Shown here: positions 67 to 7,193 of the stretch, one piece after another
Layout of the letters: each line of letters starts with the position of its first letter
Position numbering within the stretch: the stretch's first letter is position 1
Source of the DNA: a virus
Strand: one strand, 5' to 3'
IMG/VR virus record: IMGVR_UViG_3300020433_000051
Location: 1 to 22,915 of that record
DNA: 22,915 bases
Translations under genes and position numbers: made by a program
Notes under the pieces: model-generated
What the model saw: only the letters and a program-made list of their open reading frames with translations
What the model was told of the DNA's origin: nothing
Database searches by the model: none

Positions 67-489
67 ATGGGTGCTAGAGGACGCAAACCTGCTGCTGAGC
101 TTGCGATCGCAAGCCAAAACGTAGAAAAAATGGACCAAAGACCAGAGCCGCCTGGTGAATTAACGCCAGAGCAGGTCCAAATCTGGCATCAGACAGTCAA
201 TTCCCTGCAGGCTGACTGGTTTCGAGGCGAAACGCTCGCTCTGCTGACCCAATATTGCCGACATGTGGTTGAAGCAAGGTATCTTGGCGAATTTATCGAG
301 CAAATGCGGGGCAACGGTGAGACTTTTGATCTTCGCGAGTATGCTGCGATGCTCAGAGCGCGCAAAGGCGAGACTGATGCGATTGCCACTCTCGCCACAA
401 AGTTAAGAATCACGCCCCAGAGCACGACTTCCCACGCCGCCGTAAAACGTGGCGGTGCGAAATCAAGGCCCTGGGACTCCGCTGGGTGA
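67..489 (+). CDS. terS: Terminase small subunit, P27 family
   Basis: This 140-residue protein should be the DNA-recognition subunit that selects phage DNA and hands it to the large terminase. It opens with MGARGRKP, the basic start typical of P27-type small terminases. A Pro-rich linker follows (about residues 26-37, RPEPPGELTPEQ), then the conserved 'W' helix (QIWHQTVNSL) and a mostly helical body ending in a Ser/Arg-rich tail. Length and position directly before the large terminase fit the family. The ATG at 67 has AGGAG seven bases upstream. The end overlaps the next gene by four bases (GTGA), indicating translational coupling. A 16-base perfect palindrome lies near the start of the gene. 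The family call rests on recognised sequence character, not on a database search. Confidence 0.88.
   Translation: MGARGRKPAAELAIASQNVEKMDQRPEPPGELTPEQVQIWHQTVNSLQADWFRGETLALLTQYCRHVVEARYLGEFIEQMRGNGETFDLREYAAMLRARKGETDAIATLATKLRITPQSTTSHAAVKRGGAKSRPWDSAG
99..114. repeat. 16-bp perfect palindrome inside terS
   Basis: GCTTGCGATCGCAAGC reads identically on both strands. It sits 32 bases after the terS start codon and encodes ordinary residues (LAIAS region). Phage packaging start sites (pac) often lie in or near the small-terminase gene, so it could be a protein-binding site; this is inference. It has no T-tract and no loop, so it is not a terminator. Confidence 0.45.
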
Positions 490-2057
490 GCTGGTCTGAT
501 AAGCCGCTGGCAAAGCCGTGGAATAGTTACAACATCCGATATCTGCGTAATTGTGCCTGGATCGAGCAGCACTGCTTCGTGCCCAGCGGCAAGGACGTCG
601 GACAACCTATCCGCCTGCGGTGGTTTCAGCGTTTATTTTTCCGGGCAATCTTCTCAGACGTTGATCCCTGCAGGCGGGTCATTTTCAGCGTCGGACGGAA
701 AAACGCGAAAACGGCGACCTCCGCGCTCACCGTTGTGCTCAGTATTGCGGGCCCCGAGGCGAGGGATCGGATAAACGCCGAATATTATTCGACAGCCCAG
801 GCTAGAGACCAGGCGGCGATTGTATTTAACCTGGCCGCGAAGATCATCCGTATGAGCCCTGGTCTCTCCGAGTACATCAATATACGGCAATCGGTCAAAG
901 AATTAGTCAACGAAGAGCTGGGAATCACATACAAGGCTCTTTCTGCTGACGCGCCTACTGCATACGGTTTGTCACCCGCCCTGGCTATCCACGACGAGCT
1001 GGGGCAGGTCAGAGGGCCAAAATCCGAGCTTTATGAGGCTGTCGAGACCGCTACGGCGGCTCATGATAAGCCTTTAAGCATTGTTATCTCGACGCAAGCG
1101 CCAAATGACAGCGATTTGCTCTCAATTTTGATTGATGACGCAAAAAAGCAGAAAGATGCGCGCACAAAGCTGATTTTGTTTGCGGCGCCAGAAAATATTG
1201 ACCCATTCTCTGAAAATGCGGTCCGCCAGGCTAATCCTGCCCTGGGCGACTTCCAAAATGCGGAAGAAGTCATGGGAATGGCTAACGACGCACGAAGAAT
1301 GCCGGCTCGAGAGGCAGAATACAGGAATTTAGTGCTCAACCAGCGGGTCGAAGCGTACAACCCGTTTGTGGGTAAACAAATATGGGTGCAAAGTGCGGAT
1401 CATGGCGTTTTTGTCGGTCAATGCTATGGAGGTCTGGATTTATCGGAGACAAATGACCTTACCTGCTTAATTTTGGTTTTTCCCAGGGACAACACTTACT
1501 CGGTTAAATCTTTTTTCTGGCTTCCCGAGGTCGGGCTGTCCGAGCGCTCCAGGAAAGATCGCGTTCCCTACGATCTGTGGGCAAAAGAAGGATTTTTGCT
1601 TACCACTCCTGGAAAAAGCATCGAATATGAGTTTGTCAGCCGTTTTATTGCAAATCTGTTCAATGAGTACGACATACGCAAAATTGCGTTTGACAGATAC
1701 AACATGAGGCACTTGCGCCCCTGGTTAGTGAAGTCCGGACTATCCCAGGCACACATTGACGACCGTTTTGTCGAGTTCGGGCAGGGATTTGTCTCGATGA
1801 GTCCAGCGCTGCGGGTGCTCGAGTCACTGCTGCTAAATGCCAAGCTGGCGCATGGAAACCATCCGGTGCTTACTATGTGTGCTGGTAATTCTGTCGTAAA
1901 AACAAATGAAGCCGGCGATCGAAAACTTGATAAGGCCAAATCTCGAGGCCGTATTGACGGTATGGTCTCTCTAGCGATGGCATGCAGCCTGGCGAGCGAA
2001 GAAGCCAACAAATCCAGGGTTTTCCCCATTGACCTGGAGCAAATAGCCGTTGATTAA
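486..2057 (+). CDS. terL: Terminase large subunit
   Basis: This is the ATP-driven packaging motor and DNA-cutting enzyme, 523 residues long. The N-terminal ATPase shows a Walker A variant GRKNAKT (residues 70-76), a Walker B strand ending LAIHDE (166-171) and the coupling motif ISTQ (201-204). The C-terminal RuvC-like nuclease shows three likely metal-binding acids: D318 in GGLDLS, D403 in IAFDRYN and D491 in RIDGMVSLAMA. The set is therefore complete and the enzyme looks functional. The Walker A form (RKNxKT) is that of the HK97-like/Terminase_1 group, which fits its P27 partner. The start is a GTG overlapping the terS stop (GTGA). No other in-frame start fits the spacing better. The end overlaps the next gene by eight bases. 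Confidence 0.95.
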   Translation: MSWSDKPLAKPWNSYNIRYLRNCAWIEQHCFVPSGKDVGQPIRLRWFQRLFFRAIFSDVDPCRRVIFSVGRKNAKTATSALTVVLSIAGPEARDRINAEYYSTAQARDQAAIVFNLAAKIIRMSPGLSEYINIRQSVKELVNEELGITYKALSADAPTAYGLSPALAIHDELGQVRGPKSELYEAVETATAAHDKPLSIVISTQAPNDSDLLSILIDDAKKQKDARTKLILFAAPENIDPFSENAVRQANPALGDFQNAEEVMGMANDARRMPAREAEYRNLVLNQRVEAYNPFVGKQIWVQSADHGVFVGQCYGGLDLSETNDLTCLILVFPRDNTYSVKSFFWLPEVGLSERSRKDRVPYDLWAKEGFLLTTPGKSIEYEFVSRFIANLFNEYDIRKIAFDRYNMRHLRPWLVKSGLSQAHIDDRFVEFGQGFVSMSPALRVLESLLLNAKLAHGNHPVLTMCAGNSVVKTNEAGDRKLDKAKSRGRIDGMVSLAMACSLASEEANKSRVFPIDLEQIAVD

Positions 2058-2550
2058 GAAGATTGCGGGCATGTATGCCCTTAAAGATGGTTCGATGTCC
2101 TTTGTATGGCTCGAGCTAGACACGAACACGGATACCGTAAGAGTGTACGACTCCTGTGTCTTTAAAACAGAGGTGCCTGCAATAATCGCAGAGGGAGTGC
2201 GCGCTCGAGGTAGATGGGTGCCGATTGGCTGGAATAACCAGGAGATGATGCAGTGCTTACTGGATAGAGGCTGCAAAATGTTACCTGATGCGACGAGTGA
2301 TACGGACGAATACGCCGAGGTCATCAGCCGCGAGATCTGGGAGCGCATGCGTTCACAGCGGTTTAAGGTCGATCGAAAACTTACGGCCTGGTTTGAAGAA
2401 GCCAGTACCCTGGAGCGAAGCGACAACAAAATTCCCAGGGACTCACACCCGCTAATCGCGGCGACCAGGATGGCAATCGCAAATCTGGAAAACGCCAAAT
2501 CAAAACGACGATATCGTCACAAACCACAACCACAGGCAGCAATTATATGA
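2050..2550 (+). CDS. Terminase-nuclease-like protein, probably catalytically degenerate
   Basis: This 166-residue protein follows a complete large terminase, yet its layout resembles the C-terminal nuclease half of another terminase class (T7-like). The matching parts are a beta-hairpin start (FVWLELDTNTDTVRVYD, 18-34), a strand with WVPIGWN (56-62) where that class has WPHD, RFKV (104-107), WFEE (114-117), NKIPRDS (126-132) and AATR (137-140) where it has DATR. The three catalytic acids appear replaced (about Y9, N62-N63 and A137), so it is probably not a nuclease. The TTG at 2050 has GGAG at 2036-2039 and overlaps the terL stop; ATG 2071 is the alternative start. The end overlaps the next gene (ATGA). 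A role as terminase accessory or DNA-binding subunit is inference; the homology needs profile confirmation. Confidence 0.72.
   Translation: MIKKIAGMYALKDGSMSFVWLELDTNTDTVRVYDSCVFKTEVPAIIAEGVRARGRWVPIGWNNQEMMQCLLDRGCKMLPDATSDTDEYAEVISREIWERMRSQRFKVDRKLTAWFEEASTLERSDNKIPRDSHPLIAATRMAIANLENAKSKRRYRHKPQPQAAII
2507..2518. repeat. 12-bp palindrome, copy 1 of 2
   Basis: GACGATATCGTC is a perfect palindrome. The same 12 bases, within a shared 14-mer CGACGATATCGTCA, recur at 5839-5850. Both copies encode Arg-Arg-Tyr-Arg with identical codons but in unrelated proteins. It may be a protein-binding site or a coincidence. Confidence 0.4.
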
Positions 2551-2756
2551 TATTAGCGCTTAGTAAACGTGTCCAGGAGCTTGAGGAGCGTCTGGATAGA
2601 CTTGAGAAACAAGAGGCTGAGAGTCTTGCACACACAGACCAGGTCAGCAAGAAATCGGAAAACAACCGAATCGATCAAGTGCTCGATGGGGTGATACGCA
2701 ATGGTCAAGCCGCGAAAAGGCAAGGCAAAAGTAAAAATCGTCAAATCGACGGGTAA
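2547..2756 (+). CDS. Small coiled-coil protein, unknown function
   Basis: This 69-residue protein is not recognised. Residues 1-26 show a heptad pattern with Leu and Val at the a/d positions (LALSKRVQELEERLDRLEKQ), predicting a short parallel coiled coil. The rest is polar and becomes basic at the end. The start codon overlaps the previous stop (ATGA), which strongly supports the start and coupled expression. Its last 56 bases overlap the next gene in another frame, an unusually long overlap for this phage. It may oligomerise and act with the terminase or basic-protein genes around it, but only position suggests this. Confidence 0.65.
   Translation: MILALSKRVQELEERLDRLEKQEAESLAHTDQVSKKSENNRIDQVLDGVIRNGQAAKRQGKSKNRQIDG
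2688..2695 (+). promoter_or_regulatory. Ribosome binding site deciding the start at 2701
   Basis: GGGGTGAT closely matches the extended Shine-Dalgarno sequence GGAGGTGAT and lies five bases before ATG 2701. It sits inside the coding sequence of the preceding gene and is the main reason to accept the 56-base overlap between the two genes. Confidence 0.6.
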
Positions 2757-2955
2757 GCGAGTCAGTTACGGCCAGGCTGGTCGCGCAAAGGACGGTGGCC
2801 CCCGAGTCCGCCCTGGATCTGCCAAAGGCGACTCATATTGTGCTCGCAGTCTGGGGCAAATGAAAAAACATCCAAAAGCGGCGCGTAATCCTAACAGCCC
2901 GCTTCGTTTGTCGCGCAAGCGCTGGAAATGCAAAGGAGCCAAGAGTGCCCGTTAA
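2701..2955 (+). CDS. Small basic protein (DUF6321-like), marine phage type
   Basis: This 84-residue protein has 27 Lys/Arg against only two acidic residues. The core runs from VKSTGKRVSYGQAG through DGGPRVRPG and GDSYCARSLG to SRKRWKC. This string resembles a short protein type I recall from cyanophage and pelagiphage genomes and associate with DUF6321. Two cysteines (in SYCARS and RWKCKG) about 30 residues apart could take part in metal or nucleic-acid binding, but no full zinc-finger pattern is visible. It is the first of five consecutive short basic genes between terminase and portal. ATG 2701 is backed by the strong ribosome binding site at 2688-2695. Function is unknown; DNA binding or compaction is inference from charge. 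Confidence 0.78.
   Translation: MVKPRKGKAKVKIVKSTGKRVSYGQAGRAKDGGPRVRPGSAKGDSYCARSLGQMKKHPKAARNPNSPLRLSRKRWKCKGAKSAR
2932..2938 (+). promoter_or_regulatory. Ribosome binding site for the GTG start at 2945
   Basis: AAAGGAG lies six bases before GTG 2945 and supports this non-ATG start, which overlaps the preceding gene by 11 bases. Confidence 0.65.
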
Positions 2956-3154
2956 GAAAAAAGCAAAGAAAAAGTCGAAGACAAAGTCTCGCGTCAATGA
3001 GGCTGGAAACTACACTAAGCCCACTATGCGTAAGAATCTTTTTAACAAAATTAAGGCAGGATCACGCGGGGGCAGACCTGGACAATGGAGTGCTAGGAAG
3101 GCTCAATTGCTTGCTGCAGAATATCGTAAGAAAGGCGGAGGCTACACAAGCTGA
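2945..3154 (+). CDS. Small basic protein with SRVNEAGNYTKP motif
   Basis: This 69-residue protein has 21 Lys/Arg and two Glu. It begins with a Lys-rich run (residues 4-14), followed by SRVNEAGNYTKPTMRK (15-30), IKAGSRGGRPGQWSARKAQ (36-54) and a short C-terminal helix ending in KKGGGYTS. I recognise this pattern as a recurrent small protein of marine viruses, related in style to the DUF5872 group, without known function. The start is GTG with AAAGGAG six bases upstream. Its stop overlaps the next ATG by one base (TGATG). The Lys-rich head and GRPGQW turn suggest nucleic-acid contact; this is inference. Confidence 0.78.
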   Translation: MPVKKKAKKKSKTKSRVNEAGNYTKPTMRKNLFNKIKAGSRGGRPGQWSARKAQLLAAEYRKKGGGYTS

Positions 3155-3336
3155 TGGGAATGGGAGTCAAGCACTACCGAAAAGATGGCACAGAGTTTAA
3201 GGGTAGATATCACAAGATGCCTGATGGAAGTCTGCACTCGGGGGCGACGCACAGTAAATCCAGCAAGCCCTTGTTCCATTTTGGAGATCTCACGAAAAAA
3301 GCGAAAGAGAAAGCAAAATCCTCCTGGGGCAAGTGA
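3154..3336 (+). CDS. Small basic protein, HYRKDGTEFKG type
   Basis: This 60-residue protein is unusually His-rich: VKHYRKDGTEFKGRYHKMPDG, then LHSGATHSKSSKPLFHF, and a Lys-rich tail (KKAKEKAKSSWGK). The repeated 'DG...G' hairpins (KDGTEFKG, PDGSLHSG) suggest a small beta-hairpin fold. Similar short proteins occur beside the SRVNEAGNY and DUF5872-type genes in marine phages, as far as I recall. The start overlaps the preceding stop (TGATG), with GGAGG at 3137-3141; ATG 3160 is an alternative start two codons downstream. The stop overlaps the next start in the same way. No function can be assigned. Confidence 0.72.
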   Translation: MGMGVKHYRKDGTEFKGRYHKMPDGSLHSGATHSKSSKPLFHFGDLTKKAKEKAKSSWGK

Positions 3337-3581
3337 TGGCATTAAAAAAATCTCAGAGATCTTTAAAAAATTGGTCGAAGCAAAAATGGCGCACCAAGTC
3401 GGGTAAGCCCAGCCTCAAAACGGGCGAAAGATATCTTCCCGAAAAAGCTATCAAGGCGATGTCGTCGGAGGAGTATGCGGCGACAACCAGGAAAAAACGC
3501 AAGGATACAAAAGCCGGTAAACAATTTTCTAAGCAACCAAAAAAAACCGCTAAAAAAACTAGGCGGTATAGGAGTTCCTAA
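3336..3581 (+). CDS. DUF5872-like small basic protein
   Basis: This 81-residue protein contains the string I associate with DUF5872: SLKNWSKQKWRTKSGKPS (9-26), GERYLPEKAIKAMSSEEYAATT (30-51), KKRKDTKAGKQFSKQPKK. About 28 of its residues are Lys or Arg, against five acidic. Relatives occur in cyanophages and in large algal viruses, usually as virion-associated or hypothetical proteins. ATG 3336 overlaps the previous stop (TGATG); the GTG one codon earlier (3333) is possible but less likely. It ends by overlapping the next small gene by one base. It is the largest of the charge-matched basic set, so a shared role with its neighbours is plausible. Confidence 0.82.
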   Translation: MALKKSQRSLKNWSKQKWRTKSGKPSLKTGERYLPEKAIKAMSSEEYAATTRKKRKDTKAGKQFSKQPKKTAKKTRRYRSS

Positions 3582-3679
3582 TGCCAGGTAACAAATACAA
3601 CATGCCCCGAAACAAGCCAGCTACGCGCTCAGCTCCAAAAAGAAATGGCAAGAAAGCCAAGAAAAAACCAACGAGATAA
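3581..3679 (+). CDS. 32-residue basic micro-protein
   Basis: A short open frame starts at the ATG overlapping the DUF5872-like stop (TAATG), with TAGGAG ending eight bases upstream. Its product (MPGNKYNMPRNKPATR... ending KKAKKKPTR) has eight Lys and four Arg in 32 residues and no acidic residue. The ribosome binding site, exact stop/start overlap and shared composition with the four preceding genes argue that it is real despite its size. It ends six bases before the portal start. Function is unknown; it resembles a nucleic-acid-binding tail without a folded domain. Confidence 0.62.
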   Translation: MPGNKYNMPRNKPATRSAPKRNGKKAKKKPTR

Positions 3680-3685
3680 TTATCG

Positions 3686-5791
3686 ATGGCATTAAGCGAT
3701 CGCGAGATCATTAGCATTGTCGACGGTGAATTTGAGGATGCGATGGGCGCGCCTAACGGCGATATATCGAAAGAGCGCGCCCTGGCATACGATTTCTACA
3801 ATTCCCGACCACTCGGTAACGAGATTGCAGGCAAAAGCCAGGTTGTGACCAGCGACGTCGCAGAGGTGGTCGACGGCATTATGCCGAGCCTAATGAGAAT
3901 GTTTGCGACGGATGAAAATCTTGTAAGTTTTGATCCGGTCAACCAGGAAGACGAGCGTTTGGCTCAGCAGGAAACTGATTACACGACATATCTATTCTTT
4001 CGCAAAAACAAAGATGCATTCATGACGCTGCACAACTGGTTTTTCGATGCTCTTTTGCAAAAAAATGGATACGTCAAAGCATATTTCGACAACTCAGAAA
4101 TAATAACGGAAGAAACTTATAAGGGTCTTACAGAGGATGAAGCCCTGGCGCTGCTCAGCGATGAGGAGCTTGAGCCCATTGAGCGAGATGAAAGAACGAC
4201 AGAAACGGTTATTAACAACCAACTGGTGCGCGTCACGCTGCACGATATTAGATTCAAGAGGACCAGCACAAGCGGGCGGATCCGCGTCGAGAACGTGCCC
4301 CCTGAAGAATTTAGAATTAGCTCGGATGCGACAAAGGTAGACCCCGACGAGGCGAGGATGGTTGGGCATGAGCGTCTAGTTTCTCGATCAGATCTTATCG
4401 CAATGGGGTTTGACGCCGACATCGTCATGAATCTGCCCGCAAAAGGCTACGAGCATGACTCGGAGGAAAAGATTGCTAGGCGGGGCCTGGATGATCAACG
4501 AGAAGGATATTCTGACCCGTCGCAAGTGGAAGTCGAGGTCAGGGAGGCCTATGTCAAACTGGACGTCAACCAGGACGGTAAATCAGAGCTGCGTCAAATA
4601 TTTATCAGCAACGGCCAGCTTTTGAGCAACGAGCCGGCGGATCGGCAACCATTCCACGCACTTTGCTCAAAGCCTTTGCCACACAAGCATTTTGGCACTT
4701 GCCCTGCAGAGATGGTGATGGATATCCAGGAAGTCACCACAACTTTGACTAGGCAGATCCTCGACAATTTGTATCAAACAAACAACCCAGGACATGCAGT
4801 GTACGAACAGGCGATCGGAGAGACCACTCTCGACGACCTGATGACTACAGAGGTCGGTCGTATTGCTATATTTGATCGTCCCATAGGCGAGAGCTACGCG
4901 CCTATGACGGTGCCTTTCACAGCGGGTCAGTCCTTCCCGATGCTGAATCGCTATGAGCAAGTCAAGCAGGACAGGACAGGCGTAACCTCTGCCAGCGATA
5001 TGCTTGATCCAGAGGCTCTGAAAAAAGTGCAGCAATCAGTAATGACGCAGAGCATGGATATTGCGAACGGCAAGATTGAGATGATTGCGCGTATCTTTGC
5101 CGAATCAGGCATCAAATCTCTTTTCCTGCACATGCATGAGCTTATCCGCAAGCATGTCGACAAGGTCGAGGTCGCAAAACTTAGGGGAGAGTGGGTGGAG
5201 GTGGACCCATCTTCTTGGCGCGACAGGCTCGATGTGAGCGTTAATATCGGAATAGGCATGGGCAGTCGACAAAGCAATCTTATGCACTTGACGGCGATCC
5301 AGGGGCTCCAGGCGCAGCTCGCAGCTACCGATGGTTTGAACATGACCGTCACGCCAAAAAATATTTACAACACCGCCGCAGAAATTGTGCGGAATGCTAA
5401 CCTAAAGGATCCGACCAAATACTTCACCGATCCTGGAGACCAGCTTGCACCGCCGCCTAATCAAGAGATGATTGCGGTACAGCAACAACAAAATCAAATC
5501 GCCCAGGCGCAGCTTAACCTGGCGCAAGAAAAGCAAGCGATAGATCGCACTCGGGTCGAGGTCAGGGCGCAGCAGGAACAAATGCGGATGATGCTCGAAC
5601 ACCAGCGCGAGATTACCCGACTGCAGCAATCTAAAGAGCGTGACGACGATCAGACCAAGATTGCTATAGAAAAACTGCACCAAGAATTGATAAAGATGGA
5701 ACTAGACTTTAAAACAGATATTGCGCCGGCTGATTTTACCTACAACCCACTGACCGGAGAATTGACAGATCGTGAGCAACCGGAGACTTAG
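3686..5791 (+). CDS. Portal protein, P22-like/podovirus type
   Basis: This 701-residue protein should form the dodecameric ring at one capsid vertex through which DNA is packaged and ejected. It has the expected start for this class: ERALAYDFYNSRPLGNE (about 28-44), then GKSQVVTSDVAEVVDGIMPSL (about 49-69), which I recognise from portals of marine podoviruses. The middle holds the stem and clip region (IGESYAPMTVPF, SASDMLDPEALKK). Residues about 590-670 are Gln/Glu/Lys-rich with long helices, matching the extended C-terminal barrel of P22-like portals. Length fits that class and exceeds the 400-500 residues common in long-tailed phages. ATG 3686 has only a weak ribosome binding site. The last 20 bases overlap the next gene. 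Confidence 0.92.
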   Translation: MALSDREIISIVDGEFEDAMGAPNGDISKERALAYDFYNSRPLGNEIAGKSQVVTSDVAEVVDGIMPSLMRMFATDENLVSFDPVNQEDERLAQQETDYTTYLFFRKNKDAFMTLHNWFFDALLQKNGYVKAYFDNSEIITEETYKGLTEDEALALLSDEELEPIERDERTTETVINNQLVRVTLHDIRFKRTSTSGRIRVENVPPEEFRISSDATKVDPDEARMVGHERLVSRSDLIAMGFDADIVMNLPAKGYEHDSEEKIARRGLDDQREGYSDPSQVEVEVREAYVKLDVNQDGKSELRQIFISNGQLLSNEPADRQPFHALCSKPLPHKHFGTCPAEMVMDIQEVTTTLTRQILDNLYQTNNPGHAVYEQAIGETTLDDLMTTEVGRIAIFDRPIGESYAPMTVPFTAGQSFPMLNRYEQVKQDRTGVTSASDMLDPEALKKVQQSVMTQSMDIANGKIEMIARIFAESGIKSLFLHMHELIRKHVDKVEVAKLRGEWVEVDPSSWRDRLDVSVNIGIGMGSRQSNLMHLTAIQGLQAQLAATDGLNMTVTPKNIYNTAAEIVRNANLKDPTKYFTDPGDQLAPPPNQEMIAVQQQQNQIAQAQLNLAQEKQAIDRTRVEVRAQQEQMRMMLEHQREITRLQQSKERDDDQTKIAIEKLHQELIKMELDFKTDIAPADFTYNPLTGELTDREQPET

Positions 5792-7193
5792 TCGCGCAAG
5801 ATCGATTCAAAAGGAAAATCTAAAAACACAACTAGACCGACGATATCGTCAGGTACGCGAGTTTTTCCAGGCGGTAACAGCGAATATGTCACCATTGGAA
5901 AAGGCTGCCATTGCCTCAACTCCGGTTCCACTTCTGGGAGATGCTCTGGGACTAACCGCAGATATGGAGATGTATTTCACTGATCCAGATTCGCGCAACT
6001 TTTTTAATATTGCTATGACCGGCGCATCCTTGCTTCCGTTTGTCCCTCCTCGGTCAGTCCAGGGACCAATGAAAGCGGTCCAAGAGTCAGTCCAAAATTT
6101 CAGAGGTCAGCGGCGGATGAATCCTAATCTGGATCAGTCCACTGCAGCGAGAATGGCTCGAGCGGCTGAGCAGGGATTTAAGGGTCCGTATTATCACGGA
6201 GCCCAAAGAATGGATCGGGTGCTAGAAACAGGTCAGCTAGATCCAGCCCGAGCTACAAGCGGCCCTATGCCTTATTTCACAGACAATCCTGATTTAGCTT
6301 CGAGCTATGCAAAGGGAAAGCCAGACACAAGCCTGGCGCTAGACGATTACTCACAAGCGTTTGAAGTAGATGCAAGTGACCTGGGACTTAATCGCACTGG
6401 CCGTATTACAGTCGAGCAAGCCTACTATTCGCTCCCTACGGCAAAGAAGGCGGAAATCTTAGAGAAAGCCAAGCGGATCGGATACGCAGACATAGACCAG
6501 GCTACTGGTAAGCTGACATTGCATCCAGAGGGCGTGAAAGGGCTTCCAAGTTCGGAAGAGCACTTTGATTACATTATGAGAACGTCAGCCAGGGGCAACC
6601 CACTAGCGGCGCTACGAGAAATCTGGCTGGACTCAGGCAATTTGTATGGCGAAGAAGAGCTAATGGAAAATGTCTATAAGCTGACTGGATTTGACGCCCC
6701 AATTAGTCAAATAAGTGCGCCCTGGACAGAAGCCTCTGCGGTGCTACCGTCCATGATCCGAATGGAAAGACCTTTAAATACTGCTGATTCTCAAGCAGTA
6801 AGTGCCCTGATACCTAAGCTGCAGAAAGCCTTTTCGGATCCTAAGTTTAACCAACGAGCACCAGACGCTCTTGGCGCAGATCAGTTTGATAAAAGAGTGA
6901 GGTTTACACCAAAAGAATGGGTAGACCAATTAGCTAAAGACGTCGAAGCTGGCGAAAACTCTTTCGTATGGACTTCTATACCGGATGAGGTTACTACAGA
7001 GCTGAAAAAGATGGATTACGACGGAATCATTGATCGCAGCGGCAAGATGGGAGCTGGCGGTGAACACGATGTAATAATTCCATTTGAGCCTAACCAGGTA
7101 CGGTCAATAAATGCAGAATTTGACCCAGAAAAAATAGACAGCGCTGACCTTTTATCAGGGCTTCTCACTACGCGAACCGCAGATATAGCTTAA
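5772..7193 (+). CDS. Probable ADP-ribosyltransferase, virion-associated candidate
   Basis: This 473-residue protein carries split hallmarks of an ADP-ribosyltransferase fold like those in phage polyvalent proteins. They are YYHGAQ (140-145) for the NAD-binding Y-H-G strand, PYFTDNPDLASSYAKG (167-182) for the 'yFTdnpdlA.sYA' segment, and YDGII (416-420) followed by E431 and PNQVRSI (440-446), where the family has its catalytic Glu and 'PnQIKS' end. The N-terminus is basic, then moderately hydrophobic (about 45-93, PVPLLGDALGLTADMEMY and LLPFVPP), a segment seen before such domains. Start is GTG 5772 with GGAG at 5756-5759, inside the portal end. A post-portal position recalls MuF-toxin genes of other phages. 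Ejection into the host, like T4 Alt, is inference. It is not needed for a standard capsid. Confidence 0.72.
   Translation: MSNRRLSRARSIQKENLKTQLDRRYRQVREFFQAVTANMSPLEKAAIASTPVPLLGDALGLTADMEMYFTDPDSRNFFNIAMTGASLLPFVPPRSVQGPMKAVQESVQNFRGQRRMNPNLDQSTAARMARAAEQGFKGPYYHGAQRMDRVLETGQLDPARATSGPMPYFTDNPDLASSYAKGKPDTSLALDDYSQAFEVDASDLGLNRTGRITVEQAYYSLPTAKKAEILEKAKRIGYADIDQATGKLTLHPEGVKGLPSSEEHFDYIMRTSARGNPLAALREIWLDSGNLYGEEELMENVYKLTGFDAPISQISAPWTEASAVLPSMIRMERPLNTADSQAVSALIPKLQKAFSDPKFNQRAPDALGADQFDKRVRFTPKEWVDQLAKDVEAGENSFVWTSIPDEVTTELKKMDYDGIIDRSGKMGAGGEHDVIIPFEPNQVRSINAEFDPEKIDSADLLSGLLTTRTADIA
5839..5850. repeat. 12-bp palindrome, copy 2 of 2
   Basis: GACGATATCGTC, identical to 2507-2518, lies near the start of the ADP-ribosyltransferase gene. 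As in the first copy it encodes Arg-Arg-Tyr-Arg with the same codons. Confidence 0.4.

Follow-up and report, generated by a model that had tools for sequence, protein, structure and literature searches.

A stand-alone, degenerate TerL nuclease domain accompanies HK97-type terminases at SU10-type portals and may adapt one to the other

Why would a phage that encodes a complete large terminase subunit (TerL) carry, immediately downstream, a separate protein that resembles the nuclease domain of another terminase class and appears to have lost its catalytic acids? The question is raised by the window, by which we mean the whole 22,915-nucleotide stretch analysed here (IMG/VR record IMGVR_UViG_3300020433_000051), in which this stand-alone protein (SA) is encoded between terL and a portal gene (Table 1). 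The window combines an HK97-type TerL with an SU10-type portal, with an isolated domain of the TerL that belongs to this portal class in between. The SA reading frame and terL share 8 nt at the terL stop codon (2055-2057), and the TTG start of SA (2050) is preceded 10 nt upstream by GGAG. Between SA and the portal gene lie five tiny overlapping ORFs of 60-84 aa (2547-3581), mostly Lys/Arg-rich, at least two of which have counterparts in a related locus, L001. The gene after the portal (5772-7193) gives a weak match to ART-PolyVal (ADP-ribosyltransferase in polyvalent proteins; E 5.9e-6, below the cutoff), and its downstream part is strongly divergent among L001, L002, and L003. The window gave no match to any Rfam family, pRNA among them.

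Table 1. Positions of SA, selected residues of SA and TerL, and neighbouring genes in the window
Feature	Position	Strand	Basis
Small terminase subunit (TerS)	67..489	+	phrog_12559 terminase small subunit, E 9.5e-29
Complete HK97-type TerL, 523 aa, ATPase and intact nuclease domain (D318, D403, D491)	486..2057	+	PF03354 4.4e-14, PF20441 1.7e-25, phrog_9 7.6e-111
Motif VFPIDLEQIAVD in the TerL C-terminal tail (residues 512-523), found specifically in SA-paired TerLs	2019..2054	+	
GGAG, putative ribosome-binding-like site for the SA gene, within the terL 3' end	2036..2039	+	Sequence; position 10 nt ahead of the TTG start
SA ORF, 166 aa, TTG start	2050..2550	+	tblastn, profile, Foldseek and alignment matches to TerL nuclease
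Y9 of SA, substitutes the beta-1 catalytic Asp (GIDxG)	2074..2076	+	Alignments
N62-N63 of SA, where the middle Asp (PHD) would stand, in a shortened loop	2233..2238	+	Alignments
H133-P134 of SA, substitute the Asp-Asp pair starting the last helix; Pro invariant	2446..2451	+	Alignment
Basic C-terminal arm of SA, conserved hydrophobic [AS][IM][IVL]-COOH end	2497..2547	+	Alignments; model pLDDT 62
SU10-type portal protein, 701 aa	3686..5791	+	PF23899 SU10_portal, E 2.5e-184

Searched singly, the window SA protein matched no meaningful family in Pfam or PHROGs; hits to Herpes_gE, Imm63, and the like were set aside as chance. By tblastn against phages, however, full-length TerLs of SU10/7-11/phiEco32-type phages were found to be homologous to SA via their C-terminal nuclease domain (E down to 2e-11, 22-33% identity). 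An earlier note, written from the sequence alone, had ascribed to SA the C-terminal layout of a different terminase class on account of RFKV, WFEE, DNKIPRDS, AATR, and WVPIGWN; all of these were found, and the homology is confirmed. A profile of the SA family matched the P22 TerL nuclease (4DKW, E 1.2e-7), and PHROGs called terminase large subunit for 5 of 28 SA members (best 3e-5). Foldseek with an AF2 model of SA (28 sequences, pLDDT 90.4) also returned 4DKW (E 7.8e-10, TM 0.81), and comparison of the model with that structure (VIA) gave a Z score of 19.7 and 2.4 Å over 155 residues at 18% identity. The nuclease domain of P22 gp2, which unlike SA is active and sits inside a full TerL, is thus the closest solved structure; it headed the structural ranking, followed by SPP1 (Z 15.9), D6E, T4 (Z 15.5), G20c, T7, and HK97. 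The HK97 TerL (6Z6D) belongs to the same family as the window TerL (PF03354/PF20441), and its nuclease domain shares the SA fold (Z 14.0). The structure search suggested in the earlier note therefore yielded a RuvC-like TerL nuclease match with missing acids, and, judged by the model, SA is an RNase H-like fold of the TerL nuclease type.

SA is a nuclease domain only: its 166 aa include no N-terminal Walker ATPase domain, and the ATPase resides in the separate upstream TerL. Because the closest non-SA sequences are the C-terminal domains of full-length TerLs in SU10/7-11-type phages, we take a TerL of that type to be the probable source. These TerLs resemble SA not only in sequence but also in their place upstream of an SU10-type portal: in each record opened (7-11, Bas94, and StenR_269) the portal gene follows terL immediately. 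SA differs from them by its missing ATPase domain, lost acids, shortened active-site loop, and new C-terminal arm. Other origins were considered and rejected. SA is not a duplicate of the upstream HK97-type TerL, since it derives from the other TerL class, nor is it the nuclease half of a split TerL, since the upstream TerL keeps a complete PF20441 domain with invariant D318, D403, and D491. Locus L227, a relative with an intact nuclease that was considered as an intermediate, encodes a full TerL. Stand-alone Foldseek matches in other phages, for example Caulobacter phage Sansa, were set aside; the SA profile finds no relative in Sansa, whose annotated TerL (476 aa) adjoins the portal.

Iterated scans for the SA family retrieved 64 loci, corresponding to 50 distinct proteins after removal of duplicates, with identities to the window SA ranging from 89% down to 29% and a few members still more diverged. 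None of the 50 has Asp at the beta-1 site, which is occupied by His (39 members), Tyr (4), Glu (2), Arg (1), Ala (1), or Gln (1), with 2 gaps. Ahead of the last helix, the Asp pair has become [HFYSA]P, the Pro being present in 50/50. The middle (PHD) Asp is deleted or substituted in a shortened loop, a site at which the alignment is ambiguous and where the window SA has W61-N62-N63. Live relatives keep D, D, and DD at the three sites, with the exception of StenR_269, which varies at the PHD site and at the pair's second D. In the full-length TerL of that phage (L009, terL at 2442-4016), the customary middle Asp of the PHD site is missing and the DD of the last helix reads EDDH, which may be a further variant of the active site. 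The earlier note had placed the replaced catalytic aspartates of SA at Y9, N62-N63, and A137. The loss itself and the first two positions stand, but the third is better assigned to H133-P134: A137 corresponds to a neighbouring, less conserved Asp of DDxxDATR, 3-4 residues off. The three acids of the upstream TerL, described there as intact, are invariant in 36 aligned TerLs. With the fold match and the loss of acids in 50 homologues, the idea that an inactive TerL-nuclease fold has been retained beside an intact TerL is well borne out.

Two readings bear directly on this loss. The first takes SA to be a non-functional fossil, the decaying C-terminal remnant of a replaced TerL gene, and draws on the resemblance of SA to the 3' end of a replaced SU10-type terL and on its location at that gene's pre-portal place. 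Selection already contradicts it: the window SA and that of L001 differ with pN 0.094 and pS 0.73, indicating purifying selection, and the SA genes of L106 and L108 show synonymous differences only. Moreover, the 50 distinct members have full-length open frames, invariant residues including the new Pro, and a conserved basic C-terminal arm of the family's own, ending [AS][IM][IVL]. We consider the fossil scarcely credible. As 50 distinct homologues share the losses and pN is far below pS, the loss of acids is more than chance, and on this comparative evidence SA is a maintained pseudo-enzyme, not a fossil. The second reading, that SA is still a nuclease whose catalytic residues have relocated (e.g., to the conserved His9, Asp13, Asp34, Glu41, and Glu48), is very improbable. 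The prevalence of His at position 9 (39/50) and the good conservation of several acids would suit it, but the two unambiguously alignable positions lack Asp in every member, Asp34 is present in live relatives too, and the TerL has an intact nuclease of its own.

The earlier note would take conservation of the TerL-SA pair as support for a joint role, and the pair is indeed kept across related viruses. Seventy HK97-type TerL loci extend 2.5 kb or more downstream; 22 of them have both SA and an SU10-type portal, 48 have neither, and none is mixed, although these counts are non-independent and phylogeny gives only a handful of independent events. SA was seen only where an HK97-type TerL with intact acids meets an SU10-type portal; for the five SA-free TerLs checked, to which the Pfam confirmation is confined, the next gene encodes a PF04860 HK97-type portal. 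A more distant group of SU10-type portals comes with TerLs of its own, and no SA was detected there; these portals adjoin other full-length TerL candidates, several of them scoring Terminase_6N or Terminase_3. The TerL of L029 lies close to or within the SA TerL group, yet the portal there is HK97-type, and both SA and the tail motif described below are missing. In a first TerL tree, L029 and L030, both SA-free, fell inside the SA group; a larger tree was less resolved, and L029 still adjoined SA TerLs.

Beyond these loci, SA was absent from GTDB genome contigs in pattern-limited scans, and none was found in plasmids or in the isolates of the searched collections; the family is known from uncultivated phages. 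The isolated-phage matches listed were all below 60% identity and almost all annotated as TerLs, and those opened were full-length. We found no stand-alone or split dead TerL nuclease in the open-access literature.

SA-paired TerLs also share a distinctive C-terminal end. A VFPVDLExI-like motif in their last ~15 residues was present in 24/24 TerLs with SA and 0/64 without, by a loose pattern chosen after viewing the first 24 sequences. A tail HMM trained on those 24 separated 18 later-found SA TerLs from 74 SA-free TerLs with a held-out AUC of 0.995, with one clear failure: L217 scored 2.8 bits, less than the best negatives (5.7). AF2 modelled the tail of the window TerL with low confidence (pLDDT 55), as expected for an exposed, flexible peptide. 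TerL and SA are adjacent in 50 loci and separated by a gap of 100-3300 bp in 26 (duplicate loci included), so the motif is not explained by the overlapping SA ribosome-binding site. At L199, SA lies 3.3 kb downstream of TerL without adjoining it.

The SA-paired TerLs do not form one clade (AU p 8e-5), and in some the ATPase half seems to have been exchanged. The TerL of L208 has an ATPase half ~64% identical to SA-free TerLs, whereas its nuclease half is 76% identical to the SA TerL of L108, with nearly the same tail. In L188 and L197 the ATPase half is ~50% identical to the SA-free L233 and L235; the nuclease half is ~37% identical to SA TerLs, only marginally above some SA-free TerLs, and the tail is present. 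Both halves of the L217 TerL belong to an SA-free lineage, and its tail is weak. The SA-free relatives of these TerLs are without SA, a detectable SU10-type portal, and the tail. It therefore seems that the nuclease half and the tail, which are expected to lie on the portal side, generally remain with SA when ATPase halves are swapped; part of this linkage could alternatively reflect neutral hitch-hiking of neighbouring DNA in recombinants. Distance-matrix (mirror-tree) comparison gave SA partial correlations of 0.46 with portal and 0.37 with TerL, a difference that is not significant. Separately, L102 and L125 have near-identical portals but different SA and TerL alleles, implying recombination between the SA and portal genes, and the TerL of L019 (469-3198) carries a large LAGLIDADG (intein-like) insertion in its ATPase region.

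We propose, as a reading with a slight balance of probability in its favour, that SA is a third, trans-acting terminase subunit, a dead nuclease adaptor that bridges the HK97-type TerL to a foreign SU10-type portal. Left over or recruited from an SU10/7-11-type TerL, SA would dock on the SU10-type portal in the way its ancestral TerL did through the nuclease domain, and would hold the unrelated HK97-type TerL by its C-terminal tail or by the face of its nuclease. The HK97-type motor would then run on the foreign portal through SA, and cutting would be left to TerL's own nuclease. In the simplest reading, SA would be the module by which the replaced TerL docked on the portal, now devoid of catalysis and tied to the new TerL via the tail. 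In HK97, nuclease domains have been fitted directly below the portal clip (PMC10359639), and the TerL C-terminal domain or arm has been implicated in portal docking (PMC5727402, PMC7672431). Directly supported are the homology, the fold, the acid loss, the purifying selection, the strict association in gene content, and the linkage of SA to the TerL tail and nuclease half. From gene context we infer that SA is part of the packaging motor, and we likewise infer its binding to TerL tail and portal, its stoichiometry and necessity, and the direction of the evolutionary replacement.

Some observations weigh against the adaptor: the L217 tail is weak, the L188 nuclease half is only marginally closer to SA TerLs, L102 and L125 combine near-identical portals with different SAs, the distance-matrix comparison favours neither portal nor TerL, and the gene-content association comes from few independent events. 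SA also coincides completely with the SU10-type portal, which leaves room for direct contact between tail and portal. If the tail itself docks there, SA would have a separate role in the head: chaperoning assembly, acting as a decoy for the ancestral TerL-binding surfaces, or serving as a minor virion protein. The full confounding of SA, tail motif, and portal type in the gene-content data suits this account, but the SU10-type phages' own TerLs that we inspected have different tails, so the portal family shows no evident preference for the motif, and we rate it as quite unlikely.

The closest precedent for SA is the vestigial-nuclease C-terminal domain (CTD) of phi29 gp16, which is part of the ATPase itself. 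Like SA, this CTD has a TerL nuclease-like fold without catalytic residues, and its beta-1 Asp is replaced by Tyr as in the window SA. It works inside the packaging motor (PMC7672431), as gene context suggests SA may do. The two differ in that the phi29 domain is a covalent part of the packaging ATPase, while SA is a separate ORF with 50 homologues, and in that phi29 has no other nuclease, while SA adjoins a TerL that keeps its own. Since the phi29 domain still binds DNA (PMC7672431), SA might instead be a DNA-gripping or regulatory subunit, one that keeps the nucleic-acid-binding face, joins the motor, and holds DNA, sets processivity, or times cutting by TerL. The basic C-terminal arm and the many conserved Arg/Lys residues of the family fit such a role, which nevertheless leaves unexplained the restriction of SA to SU10-type portals and its absence from close TerL relatives without them; we regard it as unlikely, if less so than direct docking of the tail. 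Since SA tracks the combination of HK97-type TerL and SU10-type portal together with the special TerL tail, the comparative evidence makes an interface role more likely than a purely DNA-gripping one, a judgement we make with moderate confidence. For the adaptor role an analogue may be sought in the phi29 pRNA, on which the connection of motor to procapsid mainly depends (PMC7672431). The proposed job is analogous, that of an extra component bridging TerL ring and portal, but pRNA is an RNA, unrelated to SA, and the phi29 TerL is without an active nuclease.

The field has yet to settle how TerL recognizes its portal and what makes mixed pairings of motors and portals from different phage lineages rare; low-resolution studies have even differed over the TerL domain that faces the portal (PMC7617512). 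The loci described here are a natural instance of a one-class TerL that comes with an extra dead nuclease domain of another class whenever it is paired with the latter's portal. In such loci the portal-docking role of the TerL nuclease fold would be separable from its cutting role, and hence testable, with SA as a candidate third terminase component and the TerL tail as a candidate linear motif. More broadly, we see an even chance that the pseudo-nuclease is an interchangeable motor-portal coupling, which reads a short TerL tail and a portal of another lineage and may let terminases swap between portal classes.
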